A stretch of DNA of 41,183 bases from an uncultured Bacteroidota bacterium (lineage in GTDB: Bacteria; Bacteroidota; Bacteroidia; Bacteroidales; F082): NCBI GenBank assembly GCA_937901015.1, contig CALCGQ010000101.1:1-41183 (forward strand), read 5' to 3'. Shown one piece after another: positions 10,671-30,375 of the stretch; the first letter of the stretch is position 1; each line of letters opens with the position of its first letter. The position numbers and the translations under genes were made by a program. Under the pieces are notes generated by a model. It made no database searches. It was not told the DNA's origin and saw only the letters and a list, made by a program, of their open reading frames with translations.

Positions 10671-10699
10671 AGGCGGGTTATTGGAAAAATAACCCGCCT
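10671..10699 (-). terminator. Intrinsic terminator after the large redox fusion gene
   Basis: The perfect 12-bp stem aggcgggttatt / aataacccgcct has a five-base loop. On the plus-strand map an A-rich run precedes it, which becomes a U-rich tail for minus-strand transcripts. It lies 18 bases past the stop of the 1232-residue gene. Confidence 0.9.
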
Positions 10700-10717: not shown

Positions 10718-13700
10718 CTATTCTTCGAATGCACTTTCAAATGCATCTTCAAAATATTTAGTAATCGAATCGCATCCTTGGTTAAAAATCCGATGAGCAT
10801 TATCTTCACAAGTGTAAACAAATTTAAGATTATCCTGTTTGGCAGTAGATAACAACGACATAGCCTCAGTTTTAATATCCTCAAGCTTTGTTTTCTGTTT
10901 AACTCCAAGTTTTTTAATTATATCAGTAAGTTGTTCAAAAGATAATTTGTCAATTTTTGAACTGAACTCTGCATTAAACTCTTGATAAACTTTTTGAGTA
11001 TTTGTAAAACTACCACCAGATTCAACCGGGAATGATGCAGGTAAAATTAAATCAGCTTTCTTTGCTGTTTTGGTCATAAATGAATCCTGAACCATAACAA
11101 AATCAGATACTGAAAGCCATCCAGCAATTCTTACTGCATTCTTCGCAGTACCAAGCGGATCTTCACCAAAAATGAATAAATTCTTAAGTTTACCTTCTTC
11201 TAAATTACTGAATTGACTTTCGTTAACAGTAGCAGGAAGTTCATCAACTTTCCATTTTTTCTTCATTAATTTAACGAGCTTAGGATCATTGATTGACTGT
11301 GTACCAACTCCCAACTTAGGACATACTCCCATATCGAATAATCCTTGTGAGTTATTCTTTTCCTTTAGTGAGATTAGACCATTTGCTGTTTTGCCCAATT
11401 TACCAGTTATCATACTAAGGTTGAATAACTCATAACTTGTATTTGCTGAAATCTCTTTCTCAGAGAATACAATAATGGCATTCATTTCATCATTATATGA
11501 TTTTGCAAATTGAACAATAGTATCCATATATGGCACACCTGATAATTTCACAAGTTCTCCAAAGTTTTCCTTAAGAACCTCTTCCTTATATTCTTCATAT
11601 CCTTCGCAATTGTCATTGATAAACATTGCGTTATGGAAATTATTTGCCACAAGATAATAGTTAACCGCTTTTATGAAGTGATAGTATGAACTTATGTTTA
11701 GTACATTATCAACTTTACGTAACATTGAGCTATTATCTTCAGTGGTAATTAGTTCCACCGGAATATTATTGTTGTACTGAGCATTAACAATCATAAAACC
11801 TGCAACAGCATTATCTTTGTTTATCTCGGATCCAAGAAGGTATACCTTACTGGCATCTTTAATCTGATCAAAAGGAACATTATTTCTTGAGTTAAAAGTA
11901 TATCCATCACCTCTGTTTAAATAATGAAGACTAGTAACATTATTTGTTTTTGCTCCTGCTCTTGCCAACTTTTGAATCAAGTACATTTCCTCATTTGTTA
12001 AACGAGCACCTGCAAAGAAAGCATTGTCATCAGGATTTACAGCCGTAATTTTTTCTGCTATAATATCATATGCTTTTTTAAAGCTTATTTCTTTGAAGAC
12101 ACCTTTTTCCTTAAGTAGAGGTTTTGTTATCCGAGCGTTATCATTTAAATAGTTAAACCCGAATTTAGGATATCTACAAATATTACCATCAGGATTTACA
12201 GTTCCTTGATGGCCGGAAACCTTCATTACAAATTTACTCTTATGGTGGAGTTCAATCTCACAACCAACAGAGCAGTAATTACATATCGAACTAACAGTGT
12301 CGGTTTTAATTGGACCTGGTTTAAATAATACATTTTCAGTTAGTGCACCAGTTGGACATGTAGAAATACATAAACCACATGATTCACAATTTGAATCCTG
12401 AAGCCTTTCGCCCATACTTGGAGCAATTGATGTGTGGAAACCTCTATCAACGAGCCCCAGAGCATCAGCACCTACAACTTCTTTACAGATTCTTACACAC
12501 CTTGAACAAAGAATACATTTATTATTATCAATTTCAATGAATGGATGACGAAAATCTACTTTGTACTCATTGTATTCGCCAGCAAATTTATTCTGCTCTA
12601 CCTCATATTCTGTAGCATAGTCCTTTAGATCACAATTAAATACCTTAACACAACCACATTCTAAACAGCGCTGAGCTTCATGTTTTGCAACTTCCTCATC
12701 AGCATAGCCGAGCTCAACTTCATTAAAGTTAATACGGTTATCAGCTTCAAGAACAGGCATTTCTTCTCGTTCCTGTGTTGGATAACATCCATTATAAACC
12801 TCAGAATCCTGAACTTTAAAGTTGTCTTTTTTACTTAAGAACTCGGGTTTTGGTGGAACGATTTCCTTTTCATAAAGAAATTGATGACAGCTCATGGCTG
12901 CAGTTTTGGCTTGTGCAATTGCCTCAATAACAGTTGCAGGACCAGTTACACCATCACCTGCTGCAAATACGGAATCAATACCTGTTTGTAAAGTACCAGG
13001 ATTAGCATCAATATCACCCCAGCGGTTAAGCTTTAACTCACCATTATCTGCTGATGCATTTATGTCGTCTAAGAAATTAACAGTTGTCTTTTGACCAATG
13101 GCCGCAAGTACATAGTCAACCTCAAGGTCAAACTCAGAACCATCAATAGGAACAGGTCTTCTACGTCCGGAAGCATCTGGCTCACCCAGTTCCATTTTTA
13201 AGCAAGTTACTGACTTAACCTTACTTTCTTCATCTTTGTTAACTCTAACTGGATTAGTTAATAATAAATAATTTACGCCTTCAATTTTAGATTCATGAAT
13301 CTCAATTGGATTGGCAGGCATTTCTTTTTCAGTTCTTCTATAGATCACATAAACCTCTGTGGACCCACATCTGATAGAAGTACGACAGCAGTCCATAGCT
13401 GTGTTACCACCACCAACTACGGCTACTTTTTTACCTTTAAAATCGTATGGCTTACCTGAAACCTCCATTTCCTTAAGGAAGTCAATTCCAGAAAATACAT
13501 TCTCAGCATCATCGCCTTCGCAACCAATAAGAGTTCCTTTTTGAGAACCTATAGTAAGTACTGTTGCATCGTATTTTTTCTTTAGATCGGCATAAAGTAG
13601 ATTCTCACCAAAATTCTGGTTGTAGTAAATTTTTACACCAAGTTCAGTAATATTATCTACCTCCTTTTGAAGTATATCATTTGGTAGCCTGTATTCAGGT

Positions 13701-14416
13701 ATACCATATCTTAACCAACCACCAGCTTTTGGTGCTGCTTCAAATATATCCACCTGATGACCTAGTTTTTGCAAGAAAAATGCTGCTGATAGTCCTCCAG
13801 GACCTGCACCAATAACTGCTACTTTTTTACCAGTTTTTTCTTCAACTTCTGGTTCCCATTTCTCTTTTGACATTAAATCAATGTCAGAAGCAAACCTTTT
13901 CATATAATCAATACCAACAGGAGCTCCTTCATTCATAAGGTTCCTACGGCATGCAACCTCACAAGGGCGAACGCAAATTCTACCACAAATTGCAGGAAGA
14001 GGATTTGTTTCTTTAATCAATCCAACAGCATCACGATACTGTCCTTTGTCGATGTGGGAAATATATCCTTGAATGTCAACACCTGCAGGGCATGTTTGTT
14101 TACATTGGGCAGTGCAATCAGCATAGTGGTTGCTTAACATTAAATCCAATGCTGTCTTACGCCCTTTTTTTATTTTGTCATTGCTGGTAACAACCTTCAT
14201 TCCCTCTCTGACTTTTGTAGAGCAAGAAGGCTGTAAACCTCTTAATCCTTCAACCTCAACCACACATACATAACATGATGTAAATGGTTTTAATCTTGGA
14301 TCGTGACAGAGAGTAGGTATCTCAATATTATTTCTATTGGCTACATCTAGAATGGTTTCTCCGCCATGCGCCTGAGTTATTTCTCCGTCTAATATTATAT
14401 TAATTATATCGCTCAT
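10718..14416 (-). CDS. Multidomain redox subunit: NuoG-type Fe-S + GltD-type FAD/NAD(P) + ferredoxin + degenerate molybdopterin-oxidoreductase domain
   Basis: This cytoplasmic 1232-residue protein begins with a [2Fe-2S] domain (about 1-75, Cys cluster in CHDPRLKPFTSCYVC) and a His-Cys 4Fe-4S segment (about 90-110). A GltD-like module follows, with CGRICVRPCEVACRR, FAD loop GAGPGG (about 201) and NAD(P) loop GGGNTAMDCCR (about 330). Two ferredoxin clusters lie near 632-690. From about 711 the sequence resembles a formate-dehydrogenase/NuoG-type molybdopterin domain (CNYCSVGC). The expected catalytic Cys/Sec-His after TNN is replaced (NVTSLHYLNRGD), the usual Lys after the fourth cluster Cys is missing (CRYPKFGF), and the C-terminal cofactor-binding domain appears absent. 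It is therefore probably an electron conduit, not a formate dehydrogenase. It follows the NuoF-like gene by 18 bases and likely forms a complex with it and the NuoE-like subunit. Confidence 0.85.
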   Translation of the reverse strand: MSDIINIILDGEITQAHGGETILDVANRNNIEIPTLCHDPRLKPFTSCYVCVVEVEGLRGLQPSCSTKVREGMKVVTSNDKIKKGRKTALDLMLSNHYADCTAQCKQTCPAGVDIQGYISHIDKGQYRDAVGLIKETNPLPAICGRICVRPCEVACRRNLMNEGAPVGIDYMKRFASDIDLMSKEKWEPEVEEKTGKKVAVIGAGPGGLSAAFFLQKLGHQVDIFEAAPKAGGWLRYGIPEYRLPNDILQKEVDNITELGVKIYYNQNFGENLLYADLKKKYDATVLTIGSQKGTLIGCEGDDAENVFSGIDFLKEMEVSGKPYDFKGKKVAVVGGGNTAMDCCRTSIRCGSTEVYVIYRRTEKEMPANPIEIHESKIEGVNYLLLTNPVRVNKDEESKVKSVTCLKMELGEPDASGRRRPVPIDGSEFDLEVDYVLAAIGQKTTVNFLDDINASADNGELKLNRWGDIDANPGTLQTGIDSVFAAGDGVTGPATVIEAIAQAKTAAMSCHQFLYEKEIVPPKPEFLSKKDNFKVQDSEVYNGCYPTQEREEMPVLEADNRINFNEVELGYADEEVAKHEAQRCLECGCVKVFNCDLKDYATEYEVEQNKFAGEYNEYKVDFRHPFIEIDNNKCILCSRCVRICKEVVGADALGLVDRGFHTSIAPSMGERLQDSNCESCGLCISTCPTGALTENVLFKPGPIKTDTVSSICNYCSVGCEIELHHKSKFVMKVSGHQGTVNPDGNICRYPKFGFNYLNDNARITKPLLKEKGVFKEISFKKAYDIIAEKITAVNPDDNAFFAGARLTNEEMYLIQKLARAGAKTNNVTSLHYLNRGDGYTFNSRNNVPFDQIKDASKVYLLGSEINKDNAVAGFMIVNAQYNNNIPVELITTEDNSSMLRKVDNVLNISSYYHFIKAVNYYLVANNFHNAMFINDNCEGYEEYKEEVLKENFGELVKLSGVPYMDTIVQFAKSYNDEMNAIIVFSEKEISANTSYELFNLSMITGKLGKTANGLISLKEKNNSQGLFDMGVCPKLGVGTQSINDPKLVKLMKKKWKVDELPATVNESQFSNLEEGKLKNLFIFGEDPLGTAKNAVRIAGWLSVSDFVMVQDSFMTKTAKKADLILPASFPVESGGSFTNTQKVYQEFNAEFSSKIDKLSFEQLTDIIKKLGVKQKTKLEDIKTEAMSLLSTAKQDNLKFVYTCEDNAHRIFNQGCDSITKYFEDAFESAFEE

Positions 14417-14434: not shown

Positions 14435-16213
14435 TTAATAAACCCTGATTGCATCAAACTTACATTTAACTACACATGTTCCACACTGAATACAATCTTC
14501 CTGACGGATAAAGTGTATCTCTTTTCTGCCACCATCAATGGCATCGGTAGGGCATTTCTTAGCACAAATTGTACAACCTGTACATGCATCTGGAATTATT
14601 TCATATGTAAGAAGTTTCGTACATGCTTTCGCTGGACATTTCTTATCGTTAATATGTGCTTCATATTCATGACGGAAGTACTTAATGGTAGTAAGCACAG
14701 GATTTGGAGCTGTTTGTCCAAGGCCACAAAGTGAACTGTCCTTAATCTGATAAGCTAGTTCTTCAAGGCGTTCAATATCTCCTTCTTCACCTTCTCCATC
14801 GGTTATTCTGGTTAGTATTTCAAGCATGCGCTTGGTTCCAATTCTACAGAAAGTACATTTGCCACAAGATTCTTTTTCGGTAAAATCGAGGAAGAATTTT
14901 GCAACATCTATCATACAGGTATCTTCATCCATTACAACCATACCTCCTGAACCCATAATAGCTCCAGTAGCATTTACGGAATCATAATCAACTATGGTGT
15001 CAAGCAGGCTTTCTGGAATACAACCTCCTGAAGGTCCACCCATTTGAACAGCTTTAAACTTCTTATTATTTTGAATGCCACCACCAATTTTAAAAATCAC
15101 ATCTCTGATACTCATTCCCATTGGTACTTCTGCAAGACCAGAACGTGCTATTTTACCAGCAAGAGCAAAAACTTTTGTGCCTTTGCTTTTATCTGTGCCA
15201 TATTTAGCATATTCTTCTGCACCATGAATTACGATCCATGGAATATTTGCCAATGTTTCAACATTATTAATATTTGTTGGTTGTTTCCATAATCCTGATG
15301 CTGCTGGAAATGGCGGGCGTTTTCGAGGCATACCTCTTTCACCTTCGATTGATGCTATCAATGCAGTTTCTTCACCACATACAAAAGCTCCAGCACCTTC
15401 TTTTATATATATATCAAAATTAAAACCATGAATTCCAAGAATATTTTTTCCTAGATAACCTTTTTCTCTGGCTTGTTCAATGGCAATTTGTAATCTAACA
15501 ATTGCAAGCGGATATTCAGCACGGCAATAAATAACTCCTCCGGTTGCCTCAATCGCATAAGCTCCGATAATCATACCTTCTAATACTGAATGAGGATCAC
15601 CTTCTAGTACTGATCTGTCCATAAATGCACCAGGGTCACCTTCATCTGCATTACAGATAATATATTTTTCGTCGGATTTATTATTATTTGCGAATTTCCA
15701 TTTTAACCCGGTTGGGAAACCACCACCACCACGACCTCTTAAACCTGAGTCTATTATGGTTTGAATAACATCAAGGCGGGAAATCTGATGACCTGCAATT
15801 TTTTTAATTGCACGATAGCCATCACGAGCTTCATATTGTTCAATATTTTCAGGATCAATATAACCACAATTTCTAAGGGTGATTTTAACCTGATCATCGA
15901 TAAATGTGTTATCGATGGTTTTGAAATTATTAGAACTTACAACATAATCTTTGATTGGTTTATTTTCTAGAATATGTTGTTCAATTATTTCAGTTGCTTT
16001 TTCTTCATCAATATCACCATACATATATGTACCTGTCTCATCGATAATCTCAACAAGAGGTTCTCTATAACACATCCCAATACATGATGTTTTTTGAAGA
16101 TCAAATGTTAGGTTCTGTTCTTTTTGTATAGTTTCTAATTTATCGAATACCTTTCTGGCACCTGCAGCAATTCCGCATGATCCAAGGCCAACTATTATTT
16201 TTGTGTTTTCCAT
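14435..16213 (-). CDS. NuoF/HydB-type NADH-binding flavoprotein subunit
   Basis: The 592-residue subunit has an N-terminal thioredoxin-like [2Fe-2S] domain (about 1-90, SCGIAAGAR ... SCIGMC). The FMN/NADH-binding NuoF core follows, with SGLRGRGGGGFPTGLKW and CNADEGDPGAFMDR. An SLBB-type segment leads to the N3-type cluster motif ESCGKCTFCRIGTKR. Two C-terminal 4Fe-4S ferredoxin clusters (CTGCTICAKKCP, CIQCGTCVVKC) complete it. This extended layout is that of HydB from trimeric NAD-dependent hydrogenases and related bifurcating enzymes, not of plain respiratory NuoF. The probable role is NADH (or NADPH) oxidation or reduction with electron transfer to the neighbouring multidomain subunit. It starts one base after the NuoE-like stop. 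No membrane subunits of complex I are present here. Confidence 0.92.
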   Translation of the reverse strand: MENTKIIVGLGSCGIAAGARKVFDKLETIQKEQNLTFDLQKTSCIGMCYREPLVEIIDETGTYMYGDIDEEKATEIIEQHILENKPIKDYVVSSNNFKTIDNTFIDDQVKITLRNCGYIDPENIEQYEARDGYRAIKKIAGHQISRLDVIQTIIDSGLRGRGGGGFPTGLKWKFANNNKSDEKYIICNADEGDPGAFMDRSVLEGDPHSVLEGMIIGAYAIEATGGVIYCRAEYPLAIVRLQIAIEQAREKGYLGKNILGIHGFNFDIYIKEGAGAFVCGEETALIASIEGERGMPRKRPPFPAASGLWKQPTNINNVETLANIPWIVIHGAEEYAKYGTDKSKGTKVFALAGKIARSGLAEVPMGMSIRDVIFKIGGGIQNNKKFKAVQMGGPSGGCIPESLLDTIVDYDSVNATGAIMGSGGMVVMDEDTCMIDVAKFFLDFTEKESCGKCTFCRIGTKRMLEILTRITDGEGEEGDIERLEELAYQIKDSSLCGLGQTAPNPVLTTIKYFRHEYEAHINDKKCPAKACTKLLTYEIIPDACTGCTICAKKCPTDAIDGGRKEIHFIRQEDCIQCGTCVVKCKFDAIRVY

Positions 16214-16214
16214 A

Positions 16215-16733
16215 TTAGTTCGATTCTTGTCGTTTGATGTCCCTTACAATTCTTACAGCTTTATCACCGTTAAGCTTTCCATATGTTTCGTCACCAATCA
16301 TCAATACCGGTGCTAGCGAACAACATCCTAAACATGCAACAGACTCAAGTGTGAATAAGCCATCTTCAGTTGTATCACCGTCGTTAACTTTAAGAGAATC
16401 TTGTAGAGCAACAGTTAATTCTTTTGCATTTTGAACATGACATGCAGTACCATGACATACCTTTACAATATGTTTCCCAACAGGTTTTAATCGGAATTGA
16501 GCATAGAAAGTTGCCACTCCATACATATCACTTAATTCAATTTGGGTTTCTTTTGAAACTTTTGTGAATGCGTCCTTTGGAAGGTAGCCATAAATTTCTT
16601 GAATTCCCTGTAGCAAAGGGATCATATTTCCCTTTTTATTCTTGTATTTTTCTATTAGGGAATCAATTGCTGAGAGATCTACTTTTTCCAGTTCAATTTC
16701 TCCAATACCTGTATTGATTCTTGTTATTCGCAT
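16215..16733 (-). CDS. NuoE/HydC-type [2Fe-2S] subunit
   Basis: The 172-residue protein is a 24-kDa-subunit homologue with a helical N-terminus (LLQGIQEIYGYLPKDAFTKVS) and a thioredoxin-fold [2Fe-2S] domain. The cluster ligands are visible as CHGTACH (near residue 95) and CLGCCSLAPVLMI (near 135). In complex I and HydABC-type enzymes it pairs with the NuoF/HydB subunit, and the one-base gap to that gene supports the same partnership here. It is the first gene of a three-gene transcript separated from the upstream Nfn-like unit by a hairpin. No recognisable promoter box was found in the preceding 120 bases. Confidence 0.94.
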   Translation of the reverse strand: MRITRINTGIGEIELEKVDLSAIDSLIEKYKNKKGNMIPLLQGIQEIYGYLPKDAFTKVSKETQIELSDMYGVATFYAQFRLKPVGKHIVKVCHGTACHVQNAKELTVALQDSLKVNDGDTTEDGLFTLESVACLGCCSLAPVLMIGDETYGKLNGDKAVRIVRDIKRQESN

Positions 16734-16854
16734 CGTATTTTCTCTATTAAAAAAATTAGAATGTAAAAATAGGAAATTGCTTAGTGTTAAATCGAAAATC
16801 GAAAATTTATAATGTATCTAAATAGCAGTATTGTCAAGGATTTGATAATAAAAA

Positions 16855-16882
16855 AACCACTTCCGAAAAATTGAAAGTGGTT
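16855..16882 (-). terminator. Probable intrinsic terminator between the Nfn-like and NuoE-like units
   Basis: An 8-bp stem aaccactt / aagtggtt encloses a 12-base loop, with a run of A on the plus strand to its left that gives a U-tract in the minus-strand transcript. It lies 27 bases past the stop of the NfnB-like gene and separates the two redox units. Confidence 0.75.
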
Positions 16883-16908
16883 CTATTAAAGACAGCAATT
16901 TTCACTAA

Positions 16909-18720
16909 TTACGCAGTTGCTTTTCGTTTCTTTTTTGTGGATTTCGATAGCTTTTTATGCATCGCATTGGCAGCTATTCTTCCGGCGCCCATAGCAAGGA
17001 TTACAGTGGCAGAACCAGTAACGATATCTCCTCCTGCATAAACATTGGGAATTGATGTTTCATTGGTTTCTGGATCGGTATCAATATATCCCCATTTATT
17101 TAGGTTCAGATTTGGAGAAGATTGGAATAAAATTGGATTTGGACCATTTCCAATTGCAACAATTGCTAAATCACATTCAACTTCAAAGTTTGATCCTTCT
17201 ATTGGAATTGGTCTTCTTCTACCAGAGCTATCCGGTTCTCCAAGTTCCATTTTTATGCATTCAATGGCTTTGATTCTATTGCTATCAGTTCCAATATATC
17301 TAACAGGGTTATTTAATAATTTGAAAATCACTCCTTCTTCCTCTGCATGATGAATTTCTTCACCACGTGCTGGAAGTTCATGACGTGATCTTCTATAAAT
17401 AATGGTTACTTCTTCAGCTCCCGATCTTTTAGCAGTTCGTGCACAATCCATTGCAACATTGCCACCACCAATAACAGCGACTTTAGTCCCTGAAGGCATT
17501 GGTGTATCATATTCAGGAAATTTGTATGCTTTCATCAAATTCATTCTGGTGAGATATTCGTTTGCCGAGAAAACATTACCAAGGCTTTCCCCATCAATAT
17601 TCATAAATACTGGTAGCCCTGCTCCAACGGCGATAAAAATAGCATCAAAATTTTCAAGTAGCTCATCAAGAGTAAGTAATGGACCAATAACGTGGTTTGT
17701 TTCAATTCGACAACCCATGCTTTGTAGATAGTTTATCTCAAATTGAACAATGGATTTAGGTAATCTGAATTCGGGAATACCATATGTTAATACTCCACCT
17801 GTTTCATGTAATGCCTCAAAAATAGTTACGCCATAACCAAGCTGTCGCATATCGGCAGCAACTGTTAATCCGGCAGGGCCAGAACCAACAACAGCAATAT
17901 GTTTGCCATTTTCTTTAGCGATAACTGGTGCTTTTACCAGATCCATCTTACGCTCATAATCCGCAACAAACCTTTCTAACCTTCCAATTGCAACTGGTTT
18001 ATCCTTTATTCCTACAATGCAATGTTTTTCACACTGATCTTCTTGTGGACAAACTCTACCACAAATTGATGGAAGTATATTTTTTTCTTTGATCTTCTTG
18101 GCAGCTTCATCATATTTTTCATCTGCAATAAGAGCAATAAATGATGGTATATCAATATTTACAGGGCACCCATCAACACATTTCGGGTTTTTACATTGGA
18201 GACATCGGCCTGCTTCCAATAAAGCTAACTCACCTGTGTAGCCATAAGGTACTTCTTGATAATTGCTTACCCTTAGTTTCTGGTCTTGTTCAGGCATATC
18301 TTGCCTAGGAATTTTAAGCTTTAGTTTTCTTTCATCAGCTTTGGTTAATCCATGCCATTCACATCCATATTTCGTACAAATGTAAAATGGCATCAGTTTT
18401 GAAAGCGCAGAAATCATTACTTCACCCACATTGGATCCACAATCACCACATGGTACTTTTTTGTTTACTATACTAGTTTTACATTTTGGACATACTAAAT
18501 CATCTAATACATCGCCTTCTTTAAATGGTAATGATGTTTCTATCTCGAAAACATCAAGGTATGGGCTTAGTTTTAGATCAACATTTTGATTATTGTACTT
18601 AGCATTAAAAAGTATACTTTTCTCCTCTTTTTTTTCAATATTAAAACTGTTGTGGCAATGAGGACAATAAGTATTGAGGTAAGTTTTAAATTTTAAATAT
18701 TTTACATCCTGGTCAAACAT
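16909..18720 (-). CDS. NfnB/GltD-like NAD(P)H oxidoreductase with N-terminal zinc-ribbon module
   Basis: The 603-residue flavoprotein starts with a zinc-ribbon module of about 140 residues (CPHC, CPKC, CGDCGS, ICTKYGCEWHGL). The glutamate-synthase small-subunit fold follows: 4Fe-4S motifs CLQCKNPKCVDGCP (about 172) and CGRVCPQEDQCEKHC, FAD loop GSGPAGL, NADPH loop GGGNVAMDCARTAKRSG, and a final FAD segment GGDIVTGSATVILAMGAGR. With the NfnA-like gene 36 bases upstream, the pair matches NfnAB/SudAB, which couples NADPH with NADH and ferredoxin. The zinc-ribbon module is not part of usual NfnB and is shared with the next-but-one gene. A basic Lys/Arg-rich tail ends the protein. Glutamate synthase small subunit is less likely because there is no gltB nearby. 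Confidence 0.88.
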   Translation of the reverse strand: MFDQDVKYLKFKTYLNTYCPHCHNSFNIEKKEEKSILFNAKYNNQNVDLKLSPYLDVFEIETSLPFKEGDVLDDLVCPKCKTSIVNKKVPCGDCGSNVGEVMISALSKLMPFYICTKYGCEWHGLTKADERKLKLKIPRQDMPEQDQKLRVSNYQEVPYGYTGELALLEAGRCLQCKNPKCVDGCPVNIDIPSFIALIADEKYDEAAKKIKEKNILPSICGRVCPQEDQCEKHCIVGIKDKPVAIGRLERFVADYERKMDLVKAPVIAKENGKHIAVVGSGPAGLTVAADMRQLGYGVTIFEALHETGGVLTYGIPEFRLPKSIVQFEINYLQSMGCRIETNHVIGPLLTLDELLENFDAIFIAVGAGLPVFMNIDGESLGNVFSANEYLTRMNLMKAYKFPEYDTPMPSGTKVAVIGGGNVAMDCARTAKRSGAEEVTIIYRRSRHELPARGEEIHHAEEEGVIFKLLNNPVRYIGTDSNRIKAIECIKMELGEPDSSGRRRPIPIEGSNFEVECDLAIVAIGNGPNPILFQSSPNLNLNKWGYIDTDPETNETSIPNVYAGGDIVTGSATVILAMGAGRIAANAMHKKLSKSTKKKRKATA

Positions 18721-18756: not shown

Positions 18757-19581
18757 TTATCGGATAGAGAATAGTAATGAATCCTTTTCATCTTTTAGAT
18801 AAATCGAATTTCTATTCTGTAATTCGTCGAAATCCACCTGGTGTCCGTCAAAATCAGGTCCATCTACACAGGCAAAGCTGGTTTCATTTCCTACTTTAAC
18901 TCGACAACCTCCGCACATACCTGTTCCGTCAATCATAACAGGATTTAGACTAACTATTGTTGGGACTTTAAATTCTTTTGTAAGTTTAACTACATTCTTC
19001 ATCATGACAATTGGTCCGATGGCATATGTAAGTTTAATATCATATCTTTCACTTAAATAGGTTTTAAGTGGTCCGGTAACAAAACCTTGTTTTCCATAAC
19101 TACCATCATCAGTAGTTATAACCAATTCATCACAAATATTGCGCATTTCATTTTCAAGGATTAGCATTTCCTTGTTTTGTGCACCTATTATTCCAATCAC
19201 ATGATTGCCAGCTTCATGATATGCTTTTGCAACATGGTGAAGTATAGCTACACCGGTGCCTCCACCAACCATTATTACTGTACCCACTTTTTCAACTTCT
19301 GCAGCTCTACCTAAAGGGCCAACCACATCTTTAATTATATCACCTGTATTAAGTGATCTCATAAGAGCAGTTGTTTTACCAACAACCTGAAAAATTACAG
19401 TTATTATGCCGGCAAAACTATCTTTGTCGGCAACTGTTAGCGGAATTCGTTCGCCTGTCTCATTAACTCTTAGAATAATAAATTGGCCTGGTTTAATCTT
19501 TTTTGCAATTTTAGGAGCACTAATGTCAAACCTGATAATAGTGCTTTTGGCCATCTCTTGTTTTCTTACAATTTCGAACAT
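18757..19581 (-). CDS. NfnA/SudB-like ferredoxin:NAD(P) reductase subunit
   Basis: The 274-residue protein has a flavin-binding beta-barrel (IKPGQFIILRVNETGERIPLTVAD), an NAD-binding domain (VIMVGGGTGVAILHHVAKAYHEAGN), and a C-terminal [2Fe-2S] segment (GTGMCGGCRVKVG and FACVDGPDFDGH). This combination defines the NfnA / sulfide dehydrogenase SudB / PyrK-like group, and the RIPLT and DGPDFDGH motifs favour NfnA/SudB over dihydroorotate dehydrogenase PyrK. It forms a heterodimer with the NfnB-like product just downstream. The predicted role is electron exchange between NADH, NADPH and low-potential ferredoxin, possibly by flavin-based bifurcation. It starts with ATG and sits 52 bases after the zinc-ribbon gene. 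Confidence 0.92.
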   Translation of the reverse strand: MFEIVRKQEMAKSTIIRFDISAPKIAKKIKPGQFIILRVNETGERIPLTVADKDSFAGIITVIFQVVGKTTALMRSLNTGDIIKDVVGPLGRAAEVEKVGTVIMVGGGTGVAILHHVAKAYHEAGNHVIGIIGAQNKEMLILENEMRNICDELVITTDDGSYGKQGFVTGPLKTYLSERYDIKLTYAIGPIVMMKNVVKLTKEFKVPTIVSLNPVMIDGTGMCGGCRVKVGNETSFACVDGPDFDGHQVDFDELQNRNSIYLKDEKDSLLFSIR

Positions 19582-19633: not shown

Positions 19634-20503
19634 CTACCATTCGTCACTGTCATCAAGACGAATATCGAAAAGGTCTTCCTCGCTTAATCCATGCCATTTA
19701 CATCCTTTTTTAGTACACAAATAAAAGTCAAGAAGTTTTGTTCGGGCACCAACGGCAAGTTTTGCAACTGGTGAACCACATTTACCGCATGTTTTTGATT
19801 TAGAAATGAGGCTGTCATCACAATGTGGACAGCTTACATTTTTTACTGTTTTATCTTCGGGTAGGAAAATTGTAGATTTTGATGAAAACACATTAAGATA
19901 TGGGCTTAACATCAGATATCCCTCTTTACCATTTAAAATTTTGACCGTTAGCATGCCATTATCTATCAAGGTTTTTTTACAAAGTGGGCAATAGGCTTGA
20001 AGAAAAGCTCCAGATTCAATAATCTCTTTCTTTTCATCTTTAGCACCGGTTTCAGGCATTTTATGGGCTCTTAGCTCTGTCTCAAAGTCAGGCTTCTCTT
20101 TACCAAAACCATATTCCTGATATAGTTTACTAAGGGCTACCGAAAGTTTGTCAAATTCAACTTTATGATCCTTACAACCTGTTCTTGAACAAATACTAAC
20201 CTTACCTCCCATATCTAAATAAAAAGGAACCATCGGTGCTTTGCATGACAGACAATCAAGGTCTGAAACTATTTGTACTTCGCAGTGAGGGCAATAAAAT
20301 CTGGCTACTTCACCCTGAACCATTTCAAGATCAGACTTGTAGTTATAGCTTTCATATATGGAACTAAGGTTAATAGTACCCTTTTTATCTAAGATCTCAA
20401 TATTTAGTTTAATACTTGGCTCGTTATCAATAAGCTGATTATGATCCATTAATGAATGACCACAATCAGGGCAATTTACCTTCAATGACATTAATTCATA
20501 CAT
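19634..20503 (-). CDS. Zinc-ribbon protein with two tandem copies of the module fused to NfnB-like
   Basis: The 289-residue protein holds about sixteen cysteines in paired CxxC motifs arranged as two repeats. Repeat one (about 8-125) has CPDCG, CPHC, CLSC and CSRTGCKDH. Repeat two (about 170-280) has CPLC, CPHC, CGKCGS and CTKKGCKWHGL. The second repeat is close to the N-terminal module of the NfnB-like protein in the same operon, down to SPYLNVF and the CxxxGCxWHGL ending. It has no enzymatic signature, signal peptide or membrane helix. It may be a structural or metal-binding partner of the Nfn-like complex. That role is inferred only from operon context and module sharing. I do not recognise a named family. 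Confidence 0.85.
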   Translation of the reverse strand: MYELMSLKVNCPDCGHSLMDHNQLIDNEPSIKLNIEILDKKGTINLSSIYESYNYKSDLEMVQGEVARFYCPHCEVQIVSDLDCLSCKAPMVPFYLDMGGKVSICSRTGCKDHKVEFDKLSVALSKLYQEYGFGKEKPDFETELRAHKMPETGAKDEKKEIIESGAFLQAYCPLCKKTLIDNGMLTVKILNGKEGYLMLSPYLNVFSSKSTIFLPEDKTVKNVSCPHCDDSLISKSKTCGKCGSPVAKLAVGARTKLLDFYLCTKKGCKWHGLSEEDLFDIRLDDSDEW

Positions 20504-22949: not shown

Positions 22950-24695
22950 ATGAATAATACCAACGAAATAGTTGCTTTTAACAGAAGTAGTTTCCTGAAT
23001 GCAGATAAAAAGATCACCTTCATTGGAACGGGTGAATTTGGTGGCAAGGCTAGTGGATTGATCAATATTGCAGAGGTTCTCAGGAATAAAATCGATAAGG
23101 ATAGTTATTCTGGAATTGACATTGATATCCCGGCTATGACTGTAATAAGGTCCGATGTGTTTGATGCATTTATGAAAAGAAATAATCTGTACAGGATTGC
23201 TCTTTCTGATTCTCCTGATGATAGAATTGCACATGCATTTCAAAAAGCCAGTCTACCATTTGAGATACTTGGTGACTTAAGGTCATTAAACTCACAAGTG
23301 GTTACTCCACTCGCAGTTAGGTCTTCTAGTATTCTTGAAGATTCACAGCATGAACCTTTTGCTGGAATCTATGGAACGAAAATGACTCCTAATAATCAAC
23401 CGGATACTACTACAAGATTCAATAAGCTGGTGGAAGCCATCAAGTTTGTATATGCCTCTACATTTTTTAAAGCTGCCAAAGATTACCTTAAGGCAACGAA
23501 GTATAGTACTGAAGATGAGAAAATGTCAGTAATTATTCAGGAAGTTATGGGACAACGTCATGGATCAAGGTACTATCCTGAATTATCGGGTGTTGCCCGT
23601 TCATATAATTACTATGCATTTGGAAATGCTGACCCTGAAGATGGAATTCTCAATCTGGCTTTAGGCCTTGGAAAAACAATTGTCGACGGTGGTCTTTCTT
23701 GGTCAGTATCACCAAAATATCCACGGTCAGAACCTCCATTTGGCGGAATTTCTGATATGTTGAAAAACACACAGAATACATTCTGGTCAGTTAATATGGG
23801 GAAGGCTCCTGCTTATGATCCGGTTAACGAAGCTGAATATTTATTAAACCAAAATATAACTGAGGCAGAGGATGATAATGTACTTAGAAACATCGTCTCT
23901 ACACTCGACTCTAAATCCGGCAGGGTAGTTATGGGAACTGGAAAAACAGGCCCTAGAATTCTAACATTTGCACCAATACTTAGGTCAAGTGAAGTCCCTT
24001 TTGTTAATTTGGTTTCAAAACTTATGTCAGTTTGTGAAGAAGCAGAAGGCGATCCTGTGGAAATAGAGTTTGCTATGACTTTTCATAATGATAAGCCACA
24101 TAGATTGGGATTTCTGCAAGTCAGACCAATGGTGGTTTCCAATGAAGTTGTGGATGTAGTTCGGGAGGAACTTGTAAGTGATACAGTATTATGTTCCTCA
24201 CCGCAAGTACTAGGAAACGGTGTTAATAACCAAATTCGGGATATAATCTACTTAAAGCTTGATAAGTATGATGCTCAAATAACTTATAAAATTGCTGCTG
24301 AGATTGAAAAACTAAACAGCGCTCTGATGAAGGATGGAAAGCCATATTTGCTTTTTGGTTACGGCAGATGGGGAACTTCTGATGCTTGGGCTGGAATACC
24401 TGTTGACTGGGGTCAGATCGCTGGTGCTAAAGTGATAGTGGAAGCACCCTTGGAAGGTATGAATACCGAATTGAGTCAAGGGTCACATTTCTTTCATAAT
24501 GTTACTGGATTTGGAGTTATGTACTTTTCTGTTCCATATTCAGGAGAGTTTCCAATAGATTGGGATTGGTTAAATAACCAGCCATGTGAGAATGAAACTG
24601 AGTTGATCAGGCATATCTGTTTATCAGAACCTCTGGATATCAAAGTTGATGGTAAAACGGGTAATGGTGTCATCAATAAACCATTGAAATCATGA
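22950..24695 (+). CDS. Stand-alone PEP synthase/PPDK N-terminal ATP-grasp protein, short form (paralogue 1)
   Basis: The 581-residue protein has the PEP/pyruvate-binding ATP-grasp domain of PPDK and PEP synthase. It shows GTGEFGGKASGL (about 27-37), the phosphate-binding LAVRSSSILED (about 121-131) with PFAGIYGT, IIQEVMG, LALGLGKTIVDGG, and the closing EIEFAM ... LQVRPM (about 371-393). The phosphohistidine swivel domain and PEP-binding TIM barrel of the true enzymes are absent. Instead residues about 410-581 form a domain shared with the other two paralogues, with GYGRWGTSD (470), SQGSHFFHN (509) and a final IKVDGKTGNG. It probably binds ATP, but acceptor and product are unknown. It follows gdh by 15 bases and overlaps the next gene by four (ATGA). 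Confidence 0.88.
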   Translation: MNNTNEIVAFNRSSFLNADKKITFIGTGEFGGKASGLINIAEVLRNKIDKDSYSGIDIDIPAMTVIRSDVFDAFMKRNNLYRIALSDSPDDRIAHAFQKASLPFEILGDLRSLNSQVVTPLAVRSSSILEDSQHEPFAGIYGTKMTPNNQPDTTTRFNKLVEAIKFVYASTFFKAAKDYLKATKYSTEDEKMSVIIQEVMGQRHGSRYYPELSGVARSYNYYAFGNADPEDGILNLALGLGKTIVDGGLSWSVSPKYPRSEPPFGGISDMLKNTQNTFWSVNMGKAPAYDPVNEAEYLLNQNITEAEDDNVLRNIVSTLDSKSGRVVMGTGKTGPRILTFAPILRSSEVPFVNLVSKLMSVCEEAEGDPVEIEFAMTFHNDKPHRLGFLQVRPMVVSNEVVDVVREELVSDTVLCSSPQVLGNGVNNQIRDIIYLKLDKYDAQITYKIAAEIEKLNSALMKDGKPYLLFGYGRWGTSDAWAGIPVDWGQIAGAKVIVEAPLEGMNTELSQGSHFFHNVTGFGVMYFSVPYSGEFPIDWDWLNNQPCENETELIRHICLSEPLDIKVDGKTGNGVINKPLKS

Positions 24696-27430
24696 GTGAG
24701 AATAAACCACTTGATAGCATAATTGTTGAGTTAAAGGAGAGAGCGAAAGAGCTTAACTGTCTTTACAAAATTCAGGAATTATTAAATAGAACGCCCACAA
24801 TTGATGATCATGTTTGGAATGATATTATTGATTCTATTCCTGCGGGCTTTCAATTTCCTGATATCTGTGTAGTAAGAGTTACAGAAATTGCTGGTGAACA
24901 TATTTCTGATGGTTTTACTGAATCAAAATGGGTATTGAAATCAGATATTCTTGCTCAGGATCAGGTGGTTGGGCATATGCAGGTTTTCTATACAGAGGAA
25001 AGGCCAGACGCTGATGAAGGGCCCTTTTTGAAAGAAGAGCGAAGACTGATTGATAATATTGCTGAAAGGATAGGCTTTCAAATTCTTCATCAAAAGTTAA
25101 AATCTGTTTTTGAAGACAGAAAGAAAACAGATCAAAGAGAAGACTGGTGGGCTGTGCTTGATATGTTAAAGCAAACTGATCCTAAGCTGTTGGTGAGACT
25201 TTCAAGAAAGATGGTTAACTACTTATGTTGGACTGGTGTTAATGAAGCTGATAGTTTGCTGGAGAAGTTTAGTCCAATGGTTAAAAATGAAGGCGGAAAA
25301 TTGCTTTCAGAAATTAATAAACCTTATCAACGTCAATCGGATACTGATATGTTTGTGTTATCCTACCAAATTTTTCAGGTTGCTGGCAAACATATAAAGG
25401 AGAAGGATATTCTTAACCAGATTCAAAAATGGACTAAGGAAGATAAGTCTGACTTCCTCACAGAGATAATGGAAGACTCGGGTTCTACAGTAGCAACAAT
25501 TAGTGCTGCTATTGAAAGGTATCATCATCTAATTCCAAATATGCTTGAACTTACGGAATCTCGTGAAAAGAGCATAAAAGTTGCACTTATCAGAAGGCTA
25601 TTAACAGATCAACAGGACTTTATAGACATTGCCAAGAAAGTTGTTAAAGTGGATAGCTTTAATAAACTGCTTCACAATACCATACACCCTATTAATAGTC
25701 ATGGTCGGCTTGGTGGAAAGAGTTCAGGATTGTTTTTAGCTAAACAGATTTTAGAATCAAATACCTCAAAAAGTGAAACTTTTGATAAGATCAAAACTCC
25801 AAAAACCTGGTATATAACTTCAGATGGATTATTAAACTTCATGACTTATAATAATCTTGAAGAAATTGTAGAGCAGAAATATAAAGAGATTGGAAGAGTA
25901 AGGCAGGAATATCCATATGTAGTTCAGGTTTTTAAGAATTCAACATTTTCTCCGGAAATAATAAAAGGACTGTTGATGGCATTGGATGATTTTGGTGATG
26001 TGCCTCTTGTGGTAAGAAGTTCAAGTTTGCTTGAAGATAGGATAGGAGCAGTATTCGCCGGTAAATATAAGAGTCTGTTCATATCAAATTCAGGAGCAAA
26101 AGAGGAACGACTATCTGAATTAATGGATGCAATTGCCGAAGTATATGCTTCACTTTTTGGACCTGATCCCATAAACTACAGATCACAACATAAACTGTTA
26201 GATTATCAGGAAGAGATGGGGATAATGATTCAGGAAGTTGTGGGAACAAGGGTTGGACCCTACTTTTTTCCATCATTTGCAGGTGTCGCTTTCAGTAGGA
26301 ATGAATATCGTTGGTCATCAAGATTATTACCCGAAGATGGGTTAGTACGTATTGTTCCGGGACTGGGAACCAGAGCTGTTGATAGGTTGAGTAACGACTA
26401 TCCAATTATGCTATCTCCTGGAAAACCTGGATTAAGAGTTAATGTATCAGTTGATGAGATAATTAAATATTCACCAAAATTCATTGATGTAATCAATATT
26501 GAATCAGGTAGCTTTGAGACAATTGAAATTGAGTCCTTATTAAAACGATATGGCAAAGAGTATCCAGCTGTAAGTCGCGTATTATCTGTGTTGAAGGAGA
26601 ATCATATCCAACCTGCACGTCCTCTTGGAATGAACTTTAGTGAAAACACTTTTGTAGTAAATTTTGAAGGTCTTACTAAGCGAACATCATTCTTGAAAGA
26701 GATGATGGATATGATGAAGACACTTGAAGAAGCCTATGGAAATCCAGTTGATATTGAATTCGCACATAATGGTAAAGAGTTTTACTTGCTTCAATGTCGT
26801 TCGCAAAGTTATGTAAATGAAGACAAGCCGGCTGAAATACCAATAACTACTAATACAGAATCAGTATTATTTGCTTCTGATAAATACATAACTAATGGTT
26901 CTGTGCTTGGAATTACACATATTGTATATGTTGACCCTGTGAAATATGATCAGCTACCAAACCATGAATCAATGGTTAGGGTTGGAATAGCGATAGGTAA
27001 GATAAATGATATATTATCTGGTAGTAAATTCATATTAATAGGCCCAGGTCGTTGGGGAAGCCGTGGTGATATTAAATTGGGAGTAAGTGTTACTTATTCA
27101 GAAATAAACAATACTTCGATGCTAGTGGAAGTAGCTAAAAGAAAAAAAGATTATGTGCCTGACGTTTCCTTTGGAACACATTTTTTTCAAGACCTTGTTG
27201 AAGCTAATATCAAGTATTTGCCGCTTTACCCCGATGATGATAATGGGTTCTTTAATGATGATTTCTTTATTAATTCTGAAAATTCATACTCAAGCCTGGT
27301 ACCAGAAATGAAAGATCTTGGAAATGTAATTAAGGTAGTGGATACTTCATTATTAAATAAACATCTAAATGTTTACATGAATTCTATTATTGGTAAAGCT
27401 GTTGGAGTTATTGAAGATGAGGTAGTTTAA
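24692..27430 (+). CDS. PPDK-type ATP-grasp protein with N-terminal GAF-like sensor domain (paralogue 2)
   Basis: This 912-residue paralogue starts with a GAF-like input region (about 1-145). That region begins with a helix, KERAKELNCLYKIQELL, and continues to EGPFLKEERRLIDNIAERIGFQI, a pattern also seen in sensor kinases. A helical linker follows (about 150-335). The ATP-grasp core has GRLGGKSSGL (GGK near 341), LVVRSSSLLEDR (441), MIQEVVG, VPGLGTRAVDR and VDIEFAHNG ... LLQCRSQS. The shared C-terminal domain carries GPGRWGSRGD (784) and GTHFFQDL (828). Its glycine loop lacks the DGG found in paralogues 1 and 3, and its C-terminal end differs, so it is the most diverged copy. No His-swivel or TIM barrel is present. 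It is coupled to paralogue 1 by an ATGA overlap. Function is unknown. Confidence 0.86.
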   Translation: MSENKPLDSIIVELKERAKELNCLYKIQELLNRTPTIDDHVWNDIIDSIPAGFQFPDICVVRVTEIAGEHISDGFTESKWVLKSDILAQDQVVGHMQVFYTEERPDADEGPFLKEERRLIDNIAERIGFQILHQKLKSVFEDRKKTDQREDWWAVLDMLKQTDPKLLVRLSRKMVNYLCWTGVNEADSLLEKFSPMVKNEGGKLLSEINKPYQRQSDTDMFVLSYQIFQVAGKHIKEKDILNQIQKWTKEDKSDFLTEIMEDSGSTVATISAAIERYHHLIPNMLELTESREKSIKVALIRRLLTDQQDFIDIAKKVVKVDSFNKLLHNTIHPINSHGRLGGKSSGLFLAKQILESNTSKSETFDKIKTPKTWYITSDGLLNFMTYNNLEEIVEQKYKEIGRVRQEYPYVVQVFKNSTFSPEIIKGLLMALDDFGDVPLVVRSSSLLEDRIGAVFAGKYKSLFISNSGAKEERLSELMDAIAEVYASLFGPDPINYRSQHKLLDYQEEMGIMIQEVVGTRVGPYFFPSFAGVAFSRNEYRWSSRLLPEDGLVRIVPGLGTRAVDRLSNDYPIMLSPGKPGLRVNVSVDEIIKYSPKFIDVINIESGSFETIEIESLLKRYGKEYPAVSRVLSVLKENHIQPARPLGMNFSENTFVVNFEGLTKRTSFLKEMMDMMKTLEEAYGNPVDIEFAHNGKEFYLLQCRSQSYVNEDKPAEIPITTNTESVLFASDKYITNGSVLGITHIVYVDPVKYDQLPNHESMVRVGIAIGKINDILSGSKFILIGPGRWGSRGDIKLGVSVTYSEINNTSMLVEVAKRKKDYVPDVSFGTHFFQDLVEANIKYLPLYPDDDNGFFNDDFFINSENSYSSLVPEMKDLGNVIKVVDTSLLNKHLNVYMNSIIGKAVGVIEDEVV

Positions 27431-27498: not shown

Positions 27499-27525
27499 TA
27501 GAATAGCATGTGCTTAACTTTTAAT

Positions 27526-30375
27526 ATGAAGATTACGATTCGCAGTATATTTCTTATTACCGGTGTTATTCTATACACAATATTATTCTCAAGTAATACC
27601 CTATCTGCAAATCCCGTGGTTAGTGACTCCATTAAAATTGTACAGCTTTGTGAGTCAGCAAGATTAAATATCACAAATTATAAGGATAGTGAGTCATACA
27701 TTAATAGGGCTAGTGAGATTGCAGAGACCACCAAATGCGAAAGCTGTTATGGTGAAATATTATCCGTAAAAGCATTTTTATATTCAGAGCATGGTAAATT
27801 TGACAGTGCCTTAAACCATTATGATTTAGCATTGGCTAAATTCAAGGAAGACCATAATGATACAAGGGCAATTGAAACAATAATTGAGATCAGTAAAATT
27901 CTGGATACCCAATATAAATTTGAAGAGGCAGCTAATATTTTGAAGGATGGTCTTAATATAGGCTCCAATAACGATAGTACATTAACTGGTTTAAAAGCTG
28001 ATCTGTACCTCAACCTTGGATTAACCTTTGAAGAACTTGCATTATTCAGAAAGTCCATTGATGCTTTAATAAAAGCGTTGGAAATATATGAAGTAGAAAC
28101 CGATAGTTCAGGGGTTAGCTCATGTCTTATAAGTTTAGGGTCTTTATTAATGACTGAAGAAAACTTTACCGATGCATTAGAGTATACCGAGAGAGCTCTT
28201 GAAATAGGTACATTGTTAAATGATAGTTACACCATTTCTGCCAGTTTAAATAATATTGGTTACATATATAGTTATACCCAGAAACAAGAAGAAGCCCTTA
28301 ATTATTTTAAGAGGTCCTTGGAAATTGATCGACAGCTAAATGATAGAAATGGGGTTGCAATTTGTTTAAATAATATTGGAGACACCTACAAAGAGCTGGG
28401 CGACACCATTTTAGCTGTGAGCTATTATTCTCAGAGTTTGGAGACTGCCAGACCTGATAATAATTTGATGATAGCAGTAGTACTTATCAATATTGCAGAA
28501 CTGGAATATGTTCAGGGTAATTTGAAAAGTGCATTAGCTTATGCCAATGAAGGACTTGCTGCAGCAATTAAATCAACCTCCCTCGAACAACTACTTGAAT
28601 CATATTCTCTTCTTCAGAGGATTTATTCTGAAATGGGAAGATATGAGAAAGCCTACTTTTACCTATCTGCTCATCAGAATATACATGATAGTATTTATTC
28701 CATATCTAAGACTAGGTATATTCAGGAAGTCAATGCTAAGTATAACGACGAAAAACAGCGAAGCGAAATAAATATATTGAAAGAGAAGAATATAGATGAG
28801 TATGAGACAAAGAAATATCTATTGATTACCATTCTTGGAATATCAATTATTATTGTAAGCATGTTTGTAGTAATCAATGTTATTCGGCGCTCAAGCAAAC
28901 TAGTTAAGAAGCAAAAAAAGTACTATGAAAGGCTACTTGAGTATTCGGAAGATTTCATTTTTGTTATTGACAAAAAAGGTGTTACAAAATATATTAGCCC
29001 AAGTTATGAAAGGAGAATAGGAAGGGAAACAAAGGAAAGAACAGGAATGAGCGCATTCGAGTTTATTCACTCTGATGATGTTGATTTTGTTATGGCAGAG
29101 TTTCAAGGCCTAATCGCTGACAAACGTCCAAGGAATATTAACTTCCGAATGGAAAATGCTTTTGGTGAATGGTTGACAGTGTATGCCTTTGGGCAGAATA
29201 TGATGGATGACCCTATGATAGAGGGTATTGTGGTTAATTTTTGGGATATTACTCAACTTAAGGAAGCAGAAGAACTCATAAGTCAAAGTGAAATCAAATT
29301 CCGTGAAATTTTTAATTCTTTTCCTGATATTTATTTTCAAACCGATGTAAAAGGAGTCATAACTGAGATAAGCCCTTCTGTTTTTGAACTTATTGGATAT
29401 ACTCGTGAAGAATTACTCGGAGTTACTCCTTATGAATATTATCATTTTATTGATGACTGGAAGAAGATTGCTGCGAGATTAGAAGCTAATAGTATGGTTG
29501 ATGACCATGATACAAAGGTAAAAACAAAAAATGGAAAGGTTATTAATTGTTCGTTTAGTGCAGAAAATATCTATGATGACAAGAATAACCATTTAGGTAT
29601 GAAGGGAGTGATTCGCGACATTAGTGGTAGAGTTAACAACCAGCGCAGATTACACCAGTCTCAAGTAAAACTAAGAGAAGCAAATAAAGCTAAGGAGAAA
29701 ATATTCTCCATTATCGCTCATGATCTAATAGGACCAATTGGTACGAATAAATCCATAGTAGACTTAATTGTTGGACAAGTTGATGAACTTACCAATGAGG
29801 AGGTAGTTACATTAATTACATCTCTAAAACCCTCTCTGGATTCAACATATTCATTAATTGAGAATTTATTATCATGGGCCAGAATACAACAAAACAAGAT
29901 AGTACCTAATTTTGAGAATATACATGTTGGCAGAATGCTCGAATTAATATCAGAAATACTTAATGGGCAAGCTCTACGTAAATCTGTTAAAATGGATATT
30001 ACGGGTGATGAGGAAATAAAGATATTTGCTGATCAAAACCAAATGGATATAGTTCTTAGAAACCTTATTTCAAATTCCATAAAGTTCTCAAAGCACAATA
30101 CAAAAATAAAGGTGAGTTATGCAATAGTTGATTCTATGGCTGAGATTCGGATAAGTGATTCTGGAATTGGTATGTCTAAGAAGGAGGTAAATAAAATACT
30201 CTCCGGAAAAGGTAACGTAGAAGCCAGAAGAGGTACTGATAACGAAAAAGGAACAGGCTTTGGATTGGTTATTGTGACCGAATTTATAAAAAACAATAGC
30301 GGTAAGATTAATATATTAAGTGAAGAAGGCAAAGGAACTACCTTCATTCTAAGCTTACCTCTTGGTATAGCATAA
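27526..30375 (+). CDS. TPR-PAS-PAS sensor histidine kinase
   Basis: The kinase (about 949 residues from the chosen start) has a signal peptide or leading helix (MKITIRSIFLITGVILYTIL). A periplasmic TPR array (about 30-380) and a coiled coil lead to a transmembrane helix (about 430-452, YLLITILGISIIIVSMFVV). Two PAS domains (about 467-580 and 590-700) precede a HisKA domain with FSIIAHDLIGPIG (phospho-acceptor His near 732). The HATPase domain has RNLISNSIKFS (N box), DSGIGMS (G1) and GTGFGLVIV (G2). All catalytic boxes look intact. The ORF track begins at 27508, but the internal ATG places the signal sequence at the N-terminus. It lies directly upstream of the double-receiver ATP-grasp protein, its most likely partner, and no conventional DNA-binding regulator is adjacent. 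Confidence 0.93.
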   Translation: MKITIRSIFLITGVILYTILFSSNTLSANPVVSDSIKIVQLCESARLNITNYKDSESYINRASEIAETTKCESCYGEILSVKAFLYSEHGKFDSALNHYDLALAKFKEDHNDTRAIETIIEISKILDTQYKFEEAANILKDGLNIGSNNDSTLTGLKADLYLNLGLTFEELALFRKSIDALIKALEIYEVETDSSGVSSCLISLGSLLMTEENFTDALEYTERALEIGTLLNDSYTISASLNNIGYIYSYTQKQEEALNYFKRSLEIDRQLNDRNGVAICLNNIGDTYKELGDTILAVSYYSQSLETARPDNNLMIAVVLINIAELEYVQGNLKSALAYANEGLAAAIKSTSLEQLLESYSLLQRIYSEMGRYEKAYFYLSAHQNIHDSIYSISKTRYIQEVNAKYNDEKQRSEINILKEKNIDEYETKKYLLITILGISIIIVSMFVVINVIRRSSKLVKKQKKYYERLLEYSEDFIFVIDKKGVTKYISPSYERRIGRETKERTGMSAFEFIHSDDVDFVMAEFQGLIADKRPRNINFRMENAFGEWLTVYAFGQNMMDDPMIEGIVVNFWDITQLKEAEELISQSEIKFREIFNSFPDIYFQTDVKGVITEISPSVFELIGYTREELLGVTPYEYYHFIDDWKKIAARLEANSMVDDHDTKVKTKNGKVINCSFSAENIYDDKNNHLGMKGVIRDISGRVNNQRRLHQSQVKLREANKAKEKIFSIIAHDLIGPIGTNKSIVDLIVGQVDELTNEEVVTLITSLKPSLDSTYSLIENLLSWARIQQNKIVPNFENIHVGRMLELISEILNGQALRKSVKMDITGDEEIKIFADQNQMDIVLRNLISNSIKFSKHNTKIKVSYAIVDSMAEIRISDSGIGMSKKEVNKILSGKGNVEARRGTDNEKGTGFGLVIVTEFIKNNSGKINILSEEGKGTTFILSLPLGIA

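Follow-up and report, generated by a model that had tools for sequence, protein, structure and literature searches.

The electron-bifurcating transhydrogenase StnABC of Sporomusa ovata, like its counterparts described as Nfn-Bfu or NfnABC, contains a large subunit (StnC, or BfuA) that ends in a formate dehydrogenase (FDH)-like domain. Formate oxidation was assayed in S. ovata Stn since StnC was annotated as a formate dehydrogenase, and none was found (Kremp 2020, PMC7483475). From a cryo-electron microscopy structure, the FdhF domain of StnC was then described as catalytically inactive and its C1 and C2 clusters as a non-functional remnant, the FAD in StnC being non-bifurcating and bifurcation being carried out by StnAB (Kumar 2023, PMC10482914). 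Here we describe a further member of this family from the window, a 41,183-nucleotide stretch of DNA from an uncultured Bacteroidota bacterium (contig CALCGQ010000101.1). The product of its gene at 10718–14416 is StnC, that is, the NADPH-binding subunit (BfuA of Nfn-Bfu) of the electron-bifurcating transhydrogenase StnABC/NfnABC. Both the architecture and the dead FDH domain were already known for the family. No paper tying StnABC by that name to Bacteroidota turned up in the literature searched; Nfn-Bfu has been mentioned in several phyla including Bacteroidetes (Schut 2022, PMC9304861). New here are the repeated loss of cluster C1 beside near-invariant pathway cysteines, the stnA-B-C synteny, an Nfn–Stn gene cluster and a conserved motif at the former active-site pocket. 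What makes the locus of interest, modestly in both cases, is the pattern of C1 loss together with the Nfn–Stn cluster.

Identity of the fusion protein

The three genes of the complex are arranged as follows:

10718..14416, minus strand: stnC (nfn-bfuA), a NuoG–GltD–pseudo-FDH fusion of 1,232 amino acids (phmmer against the PDB)
14435..16213, minus strand: stnB (bfuB), NuoF/HydB-like, with an FMN–NAD site, an N-terminal thioredoxin-like part and a C-terminal 2x[4Fe-4S] domain
16215..16733, minus strand: stnA (bfuC), a NuoE-like [2Fe-2S] thioredoxin-fold subunit (9bov_C, E 9.1e-59; also 9n5u_C and 8oh5_A)

The top PDB matches of StnC in phmmer were 9bov_A (E 3.9e-232), 8oh5_C (E 2.7e-219) and 9n5u_A (E 1e-183), entries named Caldicellulosiruptor saccharolyticus NfnABC, Sporomusa ovata StnABC and Thermococcus sibiricus NfnABC, respectively. 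StnB best matched 8oh5_B (E 2.9e-259), co-linearly over residues 5–590, followed by 9n5u_B and 9bov_B, and its alignment with S. ovata StnB runs end to end, the C-terminal ferredoxin domain included. Because the best solved matches of stnA, stnB and stnC are all StnABC/NfnABC complexes, the window encodes StnABC (Nfn-BfuABC). The features that mark Stn membership are present in the subunit itself, which unites NuoG-type clusters, a GltD FAD/NADPH module and an FDH-like tail, and in its direct neighbors, the NuoE-like StnA and the HydB-like StnB with its C-terminal ferredoxin domain. StnC does not have the NfnA partner that the GltD subunit of NfnAB has: its immediate neighbors are stnA and stnB, and the nfnA of the window lies with its own nfnB. 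Stn residues Lys170 and Arg239 (S. ovata numbering) correspond to K173 and R243, by numbering counted on the alignment to the PDB matches, and both are kept in 99/99 homologues, a set of StnC proteins drawn mostly from Bacteroidota metagenome-assembled genomes and in part from Ignavibacteriota. A first-pass annotation, made from the letters of the window, had correctly read the NuoG–GltD–FDH-like fusion but missed its identity as StnABC/Nfn-Bfu and its partner genes; homologues of the same domain order, for which it proposed a search, do exist, StnC of Sporomusa ovata included.

Domain order and placement of the GltD module

Within StnC, the following elements were located:

14114..14416, minus strand: N-terminal NuoG/HydA-like [2Fe-2S] domain and the H97-C101-C105 half of the split H-C3 cluster (Pfam Fer2_4, NADH-G_4Fe-4S_3)
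12866..14119, minus strand: GltD/NfnB-like FAD–NADPH module within the NuoG part (Pfam Fer4_20, Pyr_redox_2)
12338..12544, minus strand: NuoG-type dicluster ferredoxin domain (Pfam Fer4_Nqo3)
12176..12283, minus strand: FdhF-type [4Fe-4S] ligands C712, C715, C719 and C747 (cluster C1, dead-end branch), present in the window
10901..12298, minus strand: pseudo-FDH domain, residues 707–1172 (Pfam Molybdop_Fe4S4 and Molybdopterin; AlphaFold model match)
11912..11917, minus strand: N834-R835, at FdhF Sec140-His141 (alignment)
11357..11365, minus strand: K1018-E-K1020, at FdhF Arg333 and Gln335 (alignment)

The 1,232-residue frame is uninterrupted on the minus strand, and the plus strand there is rich in stops. 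A frameshift or sequencing artefact was ruled out, as genomes of the same genus encode intact proteins of the same length and 84–85% identity. The Pfam domains follow one another in the order Fer2_4 (5–79), Fer4_20 (100–180), Pyr_redox_2 (197–503), Fer4_Nqo3 (625–693), Molybdop_Fe4S4 (707–758) and Molybdopterin (762–1154). The GltD-type FAD module, placed by the first pass between NuoG-type and ferredoxin clusters, is inserted into the NuoG-type part and splits the H-C3 motif, leaving H97, C101 and C105 before it and C584/C587/C589/C595 after it. The accompanying suggestion of two NAD(P) or flavin entry points in one polypeptide did not survive: StnC has a single one (FAD/NADPH), the NAD/FMN site being that of the neighboring StnB. 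Downstream, the ferredoxin domain holds two [4Fe-4S] clusters, with ligands 634/637/640/687 and 644/677/680/683.

The dismantled molybdenum site

That the region from about residue 711 resembles FDH alpha subunits is borne out by its Pfam domains, by alignment to FDHs and by fold: an AlphaFold model of residues 600–1232 (mean pLDDT 84) has active FDHs as well as 9bov_A and 8oh5_C among its structural matches, although confidence was low for the ferredoxin part in each of the two AlphaFold models. The FdhF-type cysteines C712, C715, C719 and C747 are retained, and the catalytic residues are gone. The key positions of the E. coli enzyme FdhF are Lys44, Sec140, His141, Arg333 and Gln335. In an alignment of StnC to three FDHs, whose sequences were partial and came from homology-search output, these positions are occupied by Y749, N834, R835, K1018 and K1020, respectively, with a gap of about five residues behind the Sec/Cys-His loop. 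The loss of the Cys/Sec-His pair and of the active-site lysine after the fourth Fe-S cysteine had been recognized in the first pass; on this alignment, the Arg333 and Gln335 equivalents are two further losses. Neither Cys/Sec nor His is found at the molybdenum-ligand pair in any homologue (0/99). The missing C-terminal cofactor-binding domain, likewise suspected earlier, is reflected in the lack of any Pfam hit to Molydop_binding (PF01568) in StnC, whose homology to FdhF ends at about residue 491 of 715.

These observations bear directly on whether the protein could still oxidize formate, or act as some other Mo/W oxidoreductase, and feed an StnAB-like core as in Fdh-Bfu enzymes. The domain is recognizably FDH-like, it keeps the FdhF [4Fe-4S] cysteines, and the genome carries moaA together with three other molybdopterin-domain proteins, so that the cofactor can be made (the moaA call lies above the NCBIfam cut-off once neighboring matches are joined). 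Yet all five key residues are replaced, the C-terminal MGD domain was not found, the defect is family-wide, and S. ovata StnC does not oxidize formate (PMC7483475); the idea was rejected on the residues, the missing domain and the conservation across the family, and is scarcely credible. The same biosynthetic genes rule out the notion that the site was lost for want of molybdopterin synthesis. The dead enzyme domain, striking as it looks, thus belongs to a bifurcating transhydrogenase in which it has been documented before. Genes of this kind risk being annotated as formate dehydrogenase, an expectation already voiced in the first pass and exemplified by Sporomusa StnC, which had carried that very annotation (PMC7483475).

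A divergent StnC (L028, 36% identical, from genome G022) keeps CVKGRF, with the Lys44 equivalent, and has lost the Cys/Sec-His pair, which suggests a separate path of decay. Its genome also encodes an ordinary NfnA. When the L028 protein was used to reach the C-terminal region of StnC from S. ovata, active FDHs ranked above it.

Repeated loss of cluster C1

Cysteines of the pathway clusters are near-invariant in the homologue set, the exceptions being row-end gaps and one row with isoleucine at C144. All eight cysteines of the ferredoxin dicluster are present in 99/99, and C37, C48, C51, C65 and H97 are kept wherever the row is not gapped (97/99). Beside this, the four C1 ligands C712/C715/C719/C747 are lost together in 31/99 homologues (L015, L016, L067, L085 and L107 among them), in several lineages. 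Mapped onto a tree of residues 1–700 only, that is, without the pseudo-FDH domain (a quick tree with SH-aLRT support only), the C1-loss label needs 8 changes, and the starred branches force at least four. Because simultaneous regain of four ligands is unlikely, we infer that the absences are losses, which occurred at least four times. The pseudo-FDH domain as a whole has also diverged faster, with a mean identity of 46–48% versus ~70% for the rest of StnC.

Congruent with this pattern, T. sibiricus BfuA lacks the ligands of the other dead-end cluster (Schut 2022, PMC9304861), at positions 644/677/680/683 here, as read from the PDB-match alignment. That no electrons flow through the FDH branch is a claim drawn from structure, which the Bacteroidota set puts to a separate test, an evolutionary one; the outcome fits the published dead-end reading, as corroboration and not as proof.

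A conserved motif at the former pocket

The segment that once carried Arg333 and Gln335, SLKEKNNSQGLFDMG, has a 15-residue mean conservation of 0.85 versus 0.60 for the domain. The signature of the dead pocket comprises SLKEKNN plus R835: Lys occupies positions 1018 and 1020 in 91/99 homologues each, and R835 is Arg in 80/99, including 31/31 of those without C1. Most simply, the motif has a structural role. One might instead imagine that the pocket was remade as a regulatory site for an anionic ligand or nucleotide, something beyond a mere scaffold, given that SLKEKNNSQGLFDMG, R835, K1018 and K1020 form a new conserved signature at pocket positions. Such a putative site is unlikely: conserved salt bridges are equally explicable as structural, the related L028 protein decayed differently, and shortened StnC proteins of ~890 amino acids exist (PMC7483475, Table 1).

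Proposed mechanism

An electron-bifurcating transhydrogenase with the pseudo-FDH domain as inert scaffold is the explanation we favor, at a probability of roughly 0.92. Membership, site loss, pathway-ligand invariance and synteny were observed in the analysis; activity, direction and oligomer are carried over from characterized homologues. By analogy, the StnABC of the window would couple NADPH oxidation to reduction of NAD+ and ferredoxin. A hydride would pass from NADPH to the non-bifurcating FAD in the GltD module. From there, single electrons would reach StnB along a chain within StnC made up, in this order, of the clusters of the GltD module, the split H-C3 cluster, the [2Fe-2S] cluster and one of the ferredoxin-type clusters. 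FMN and its neighboring clusters in StnB would then pass the electrons on, both to NAD+ and to ferredoxin. StnABC may run in reverse in the cell, making NADPH. The pseudo-FDH domain would perform no chemistry and serve as a scaffold, since it has lost the Mo ligand, the fourth domain and the catalytic residues (His, Lys, Arg, Gln); its C1 cluster would be a dead end, repeatedly dispensed with by relatives. In Sporomusa, the corresponding domain helps form the tetramer.

Several points weigh against this explanation. The equivalent of Stn Cys114 is I115 in the window, and V or I in nearly all Bacteroidota homologues (V/I/A across homologues). Cys114 lies near cluster C7, and its mutation halves the activity of S. 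ovata Stn; the authors call the residue not strictly conserved in the family. The isolated pseudo-FDH domain scores higher against active FDHs than against other Stn proteins. An apparently complete NfnAB adjoins, which would be redundant for the same net reaction, and the papers searched contained no biochemistry on a member from Bacteroidota.

Some of these points could be taken to mean that StnABC acts as an NADPH:acceptor oxidoreductase without bifurcation, for example an NADPH–NAD transhydrogenase or a sulfur/oxygen reductase (compare the Thermococcus Nso annotation), and that the adjacent NfnAB does the bifurcating. NfnAB looks intact, C114 is not conserved, and such relatives exist (PMC9304861). 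However, StnB aligns co-linearly with the bifurcating Stn/HydB proteins and has both the N-terminal domain and the C-terminal 2x[4Fe-4S] domain, which are absent from non-bifurcating homologues (PMC9304861), and most Stn-positive relatives lack any NfnAB, which makes this alternative very improbable next to a bifurcating StnABC.

NfnAB beside StnABC

The order stnA-B-C holds in every locus whose upstream DNA reaches far enough to show it (65/65), mostly from Bacteroidota and some from Ignavibacteriota. Directly upstream of stnABC in the window, on the same strand, lie a zinc-ribbon nfnB, nfnA and znr:

16909..18720, minus strand: nfnB with an extra N-terminal zinc-ribbon region (~135 amino acids), belonging to a separate complex (4ylf_B of Thermotoga maritima, E 6.4e-165; also 5jca_L of Pyrococcus furiosus)
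18757..19581, minus strand: nfnA (5jca_S, E 1.8e-90; also 4ylf_A)
19634..20503, minus strand: znr, a zinc-ribbon protein with six CxxC motifs, adjoining nfnAB in Stn loci with an intact cluster
16853..16884, minus strand: 12-pair terminator-like hairpin between nfnB and stnA
10671..10699, minus strand: 12-pair terminator-like hairpin just after stnC

The hairpin between nfnB and stnA bears on whether the six genes form a single operon; its position is suggestive, the total of terminator-like hits in the region being not above chance. The N-terminal extension of NfnB is homologous to the znr product, and a phylum-wide search for this zinc-ribbon protein found almost nothing. A second, single-domain paralogue of 137 amino acids occurs in genome G000 (contig C136:6176–6565), on a contig shared with another NuoF-like protein.

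The Nfn–Stn neighborhood recurs in at least eight other loci and in two gene orders. The znr-nfnAB-stnABC cluster is intact in L040, L046, L080, L081 and L116 (L080 and L081 being Ignavibacteriota) and cut off in L045; L057 and L060 have nfn on the downstream side of stn, and L049 has an nfnB fragment ~7 kb away. Near-exclusivity of Stn and NfnAB has been reported for acetogens (Kremp 2020, PMC7483475) and Thermococcaceae (Schut 2022, PMC9304861). In a count over 61 related draft genomes, those outside the window's genus had both Stn and NfnA in 1 case, Stn only in 16, NfnA only in 31 and neither in 5 (Fisher p ~2e-8, uncorrected for relatedness). The window's genus breaks this near mutual exclusivity: five of its genomes have both Stn and NfnA, together in G000, G001 and G006, and on different contigs of broken assemblies in G003 and G004. 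This exception raises the question of why both are kept side by side. Conceivably, znr-nfnA-zinc-ribbon-nfnB-stnA-stnB-stnC encodes a functional pair of bifurcating transhydrogenases that are unrelated to each other but physically joined or regulated together, perhaps via shared zinc-ribbon domains, each using its own partners or working in the direction opposite to the other, with the dead Mo pocket of this StnC type turned into a conserved effector site; as a whole, this proposal is unlikely.

Elsewhere, the same genome probably encodes an electron-bifurcating [FeFe]-hydrogenase, from a pair of HydB-like and HydA-like proteins (645 and 578 amino acids; G000 contig C24, ~11.8–13.8 kb). Further along the window, three nearby plus-strand proteins (22950–24695, 24692–27430 and 30459–33443) have PPDK N-terminal ATP-binding domains, the group being interrupted by a TPR-PAS histidine kinase (27508–30375).

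Comparison with known systems

StnC of S. ovata (PDB 8OH5/8OH9; PMC7483475, PMC10482914) is like that of the window in domain order, in its partner genes and their order, in K170/R239 and in its dead FDH-like domain. It differs in having C114 where the window has I115, in a pseudo-FDH domain that is 25% identical (Foldseek alignment) and in the window's own KEK motif; furthermore, S. ovata has no NfnAB, whereas the window has adjacent NfnAB genes. NfnABC of Caldicellulosiruptor saccharolyticus (PDB 9BOV/9BP5), the best sequence match for both StnC and StnA, shares the architecture but comes from a different phylum and has a divergent pseudo-FDH domain. In Nfn-BfuABC of Thermococcus sibiricus (PDB 9N5U/9N5V; PMC9304861), for which bifurcation was shown, an NADPH-entry BfuA similarly sits on a BfuBC core; that BfuA is ~200–270 residues shorter and lacks the A4-cluster cysteines (644/677/680/683 here), while some Bacteroidota members lose C1 instead. 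E. coli formate dehydrogenase H (FdhF, 1AA6) shares its [4Fe-4S] motif and, over its first three domains, its fold with StnC of the window, but the window protein has all five key active-site residues replaced and no fourth domain. Finally, NfnAB (T. maritima 4YLF, P. furiosus 5JCA) has the GltD-type FAD/NADPH module in common with Stn and, in published homologues, catalyzes the same net reaction; the FAD in Stn, in contrast, is not the bifurcating flavin, and the window encodes a separate NfnAB next door.

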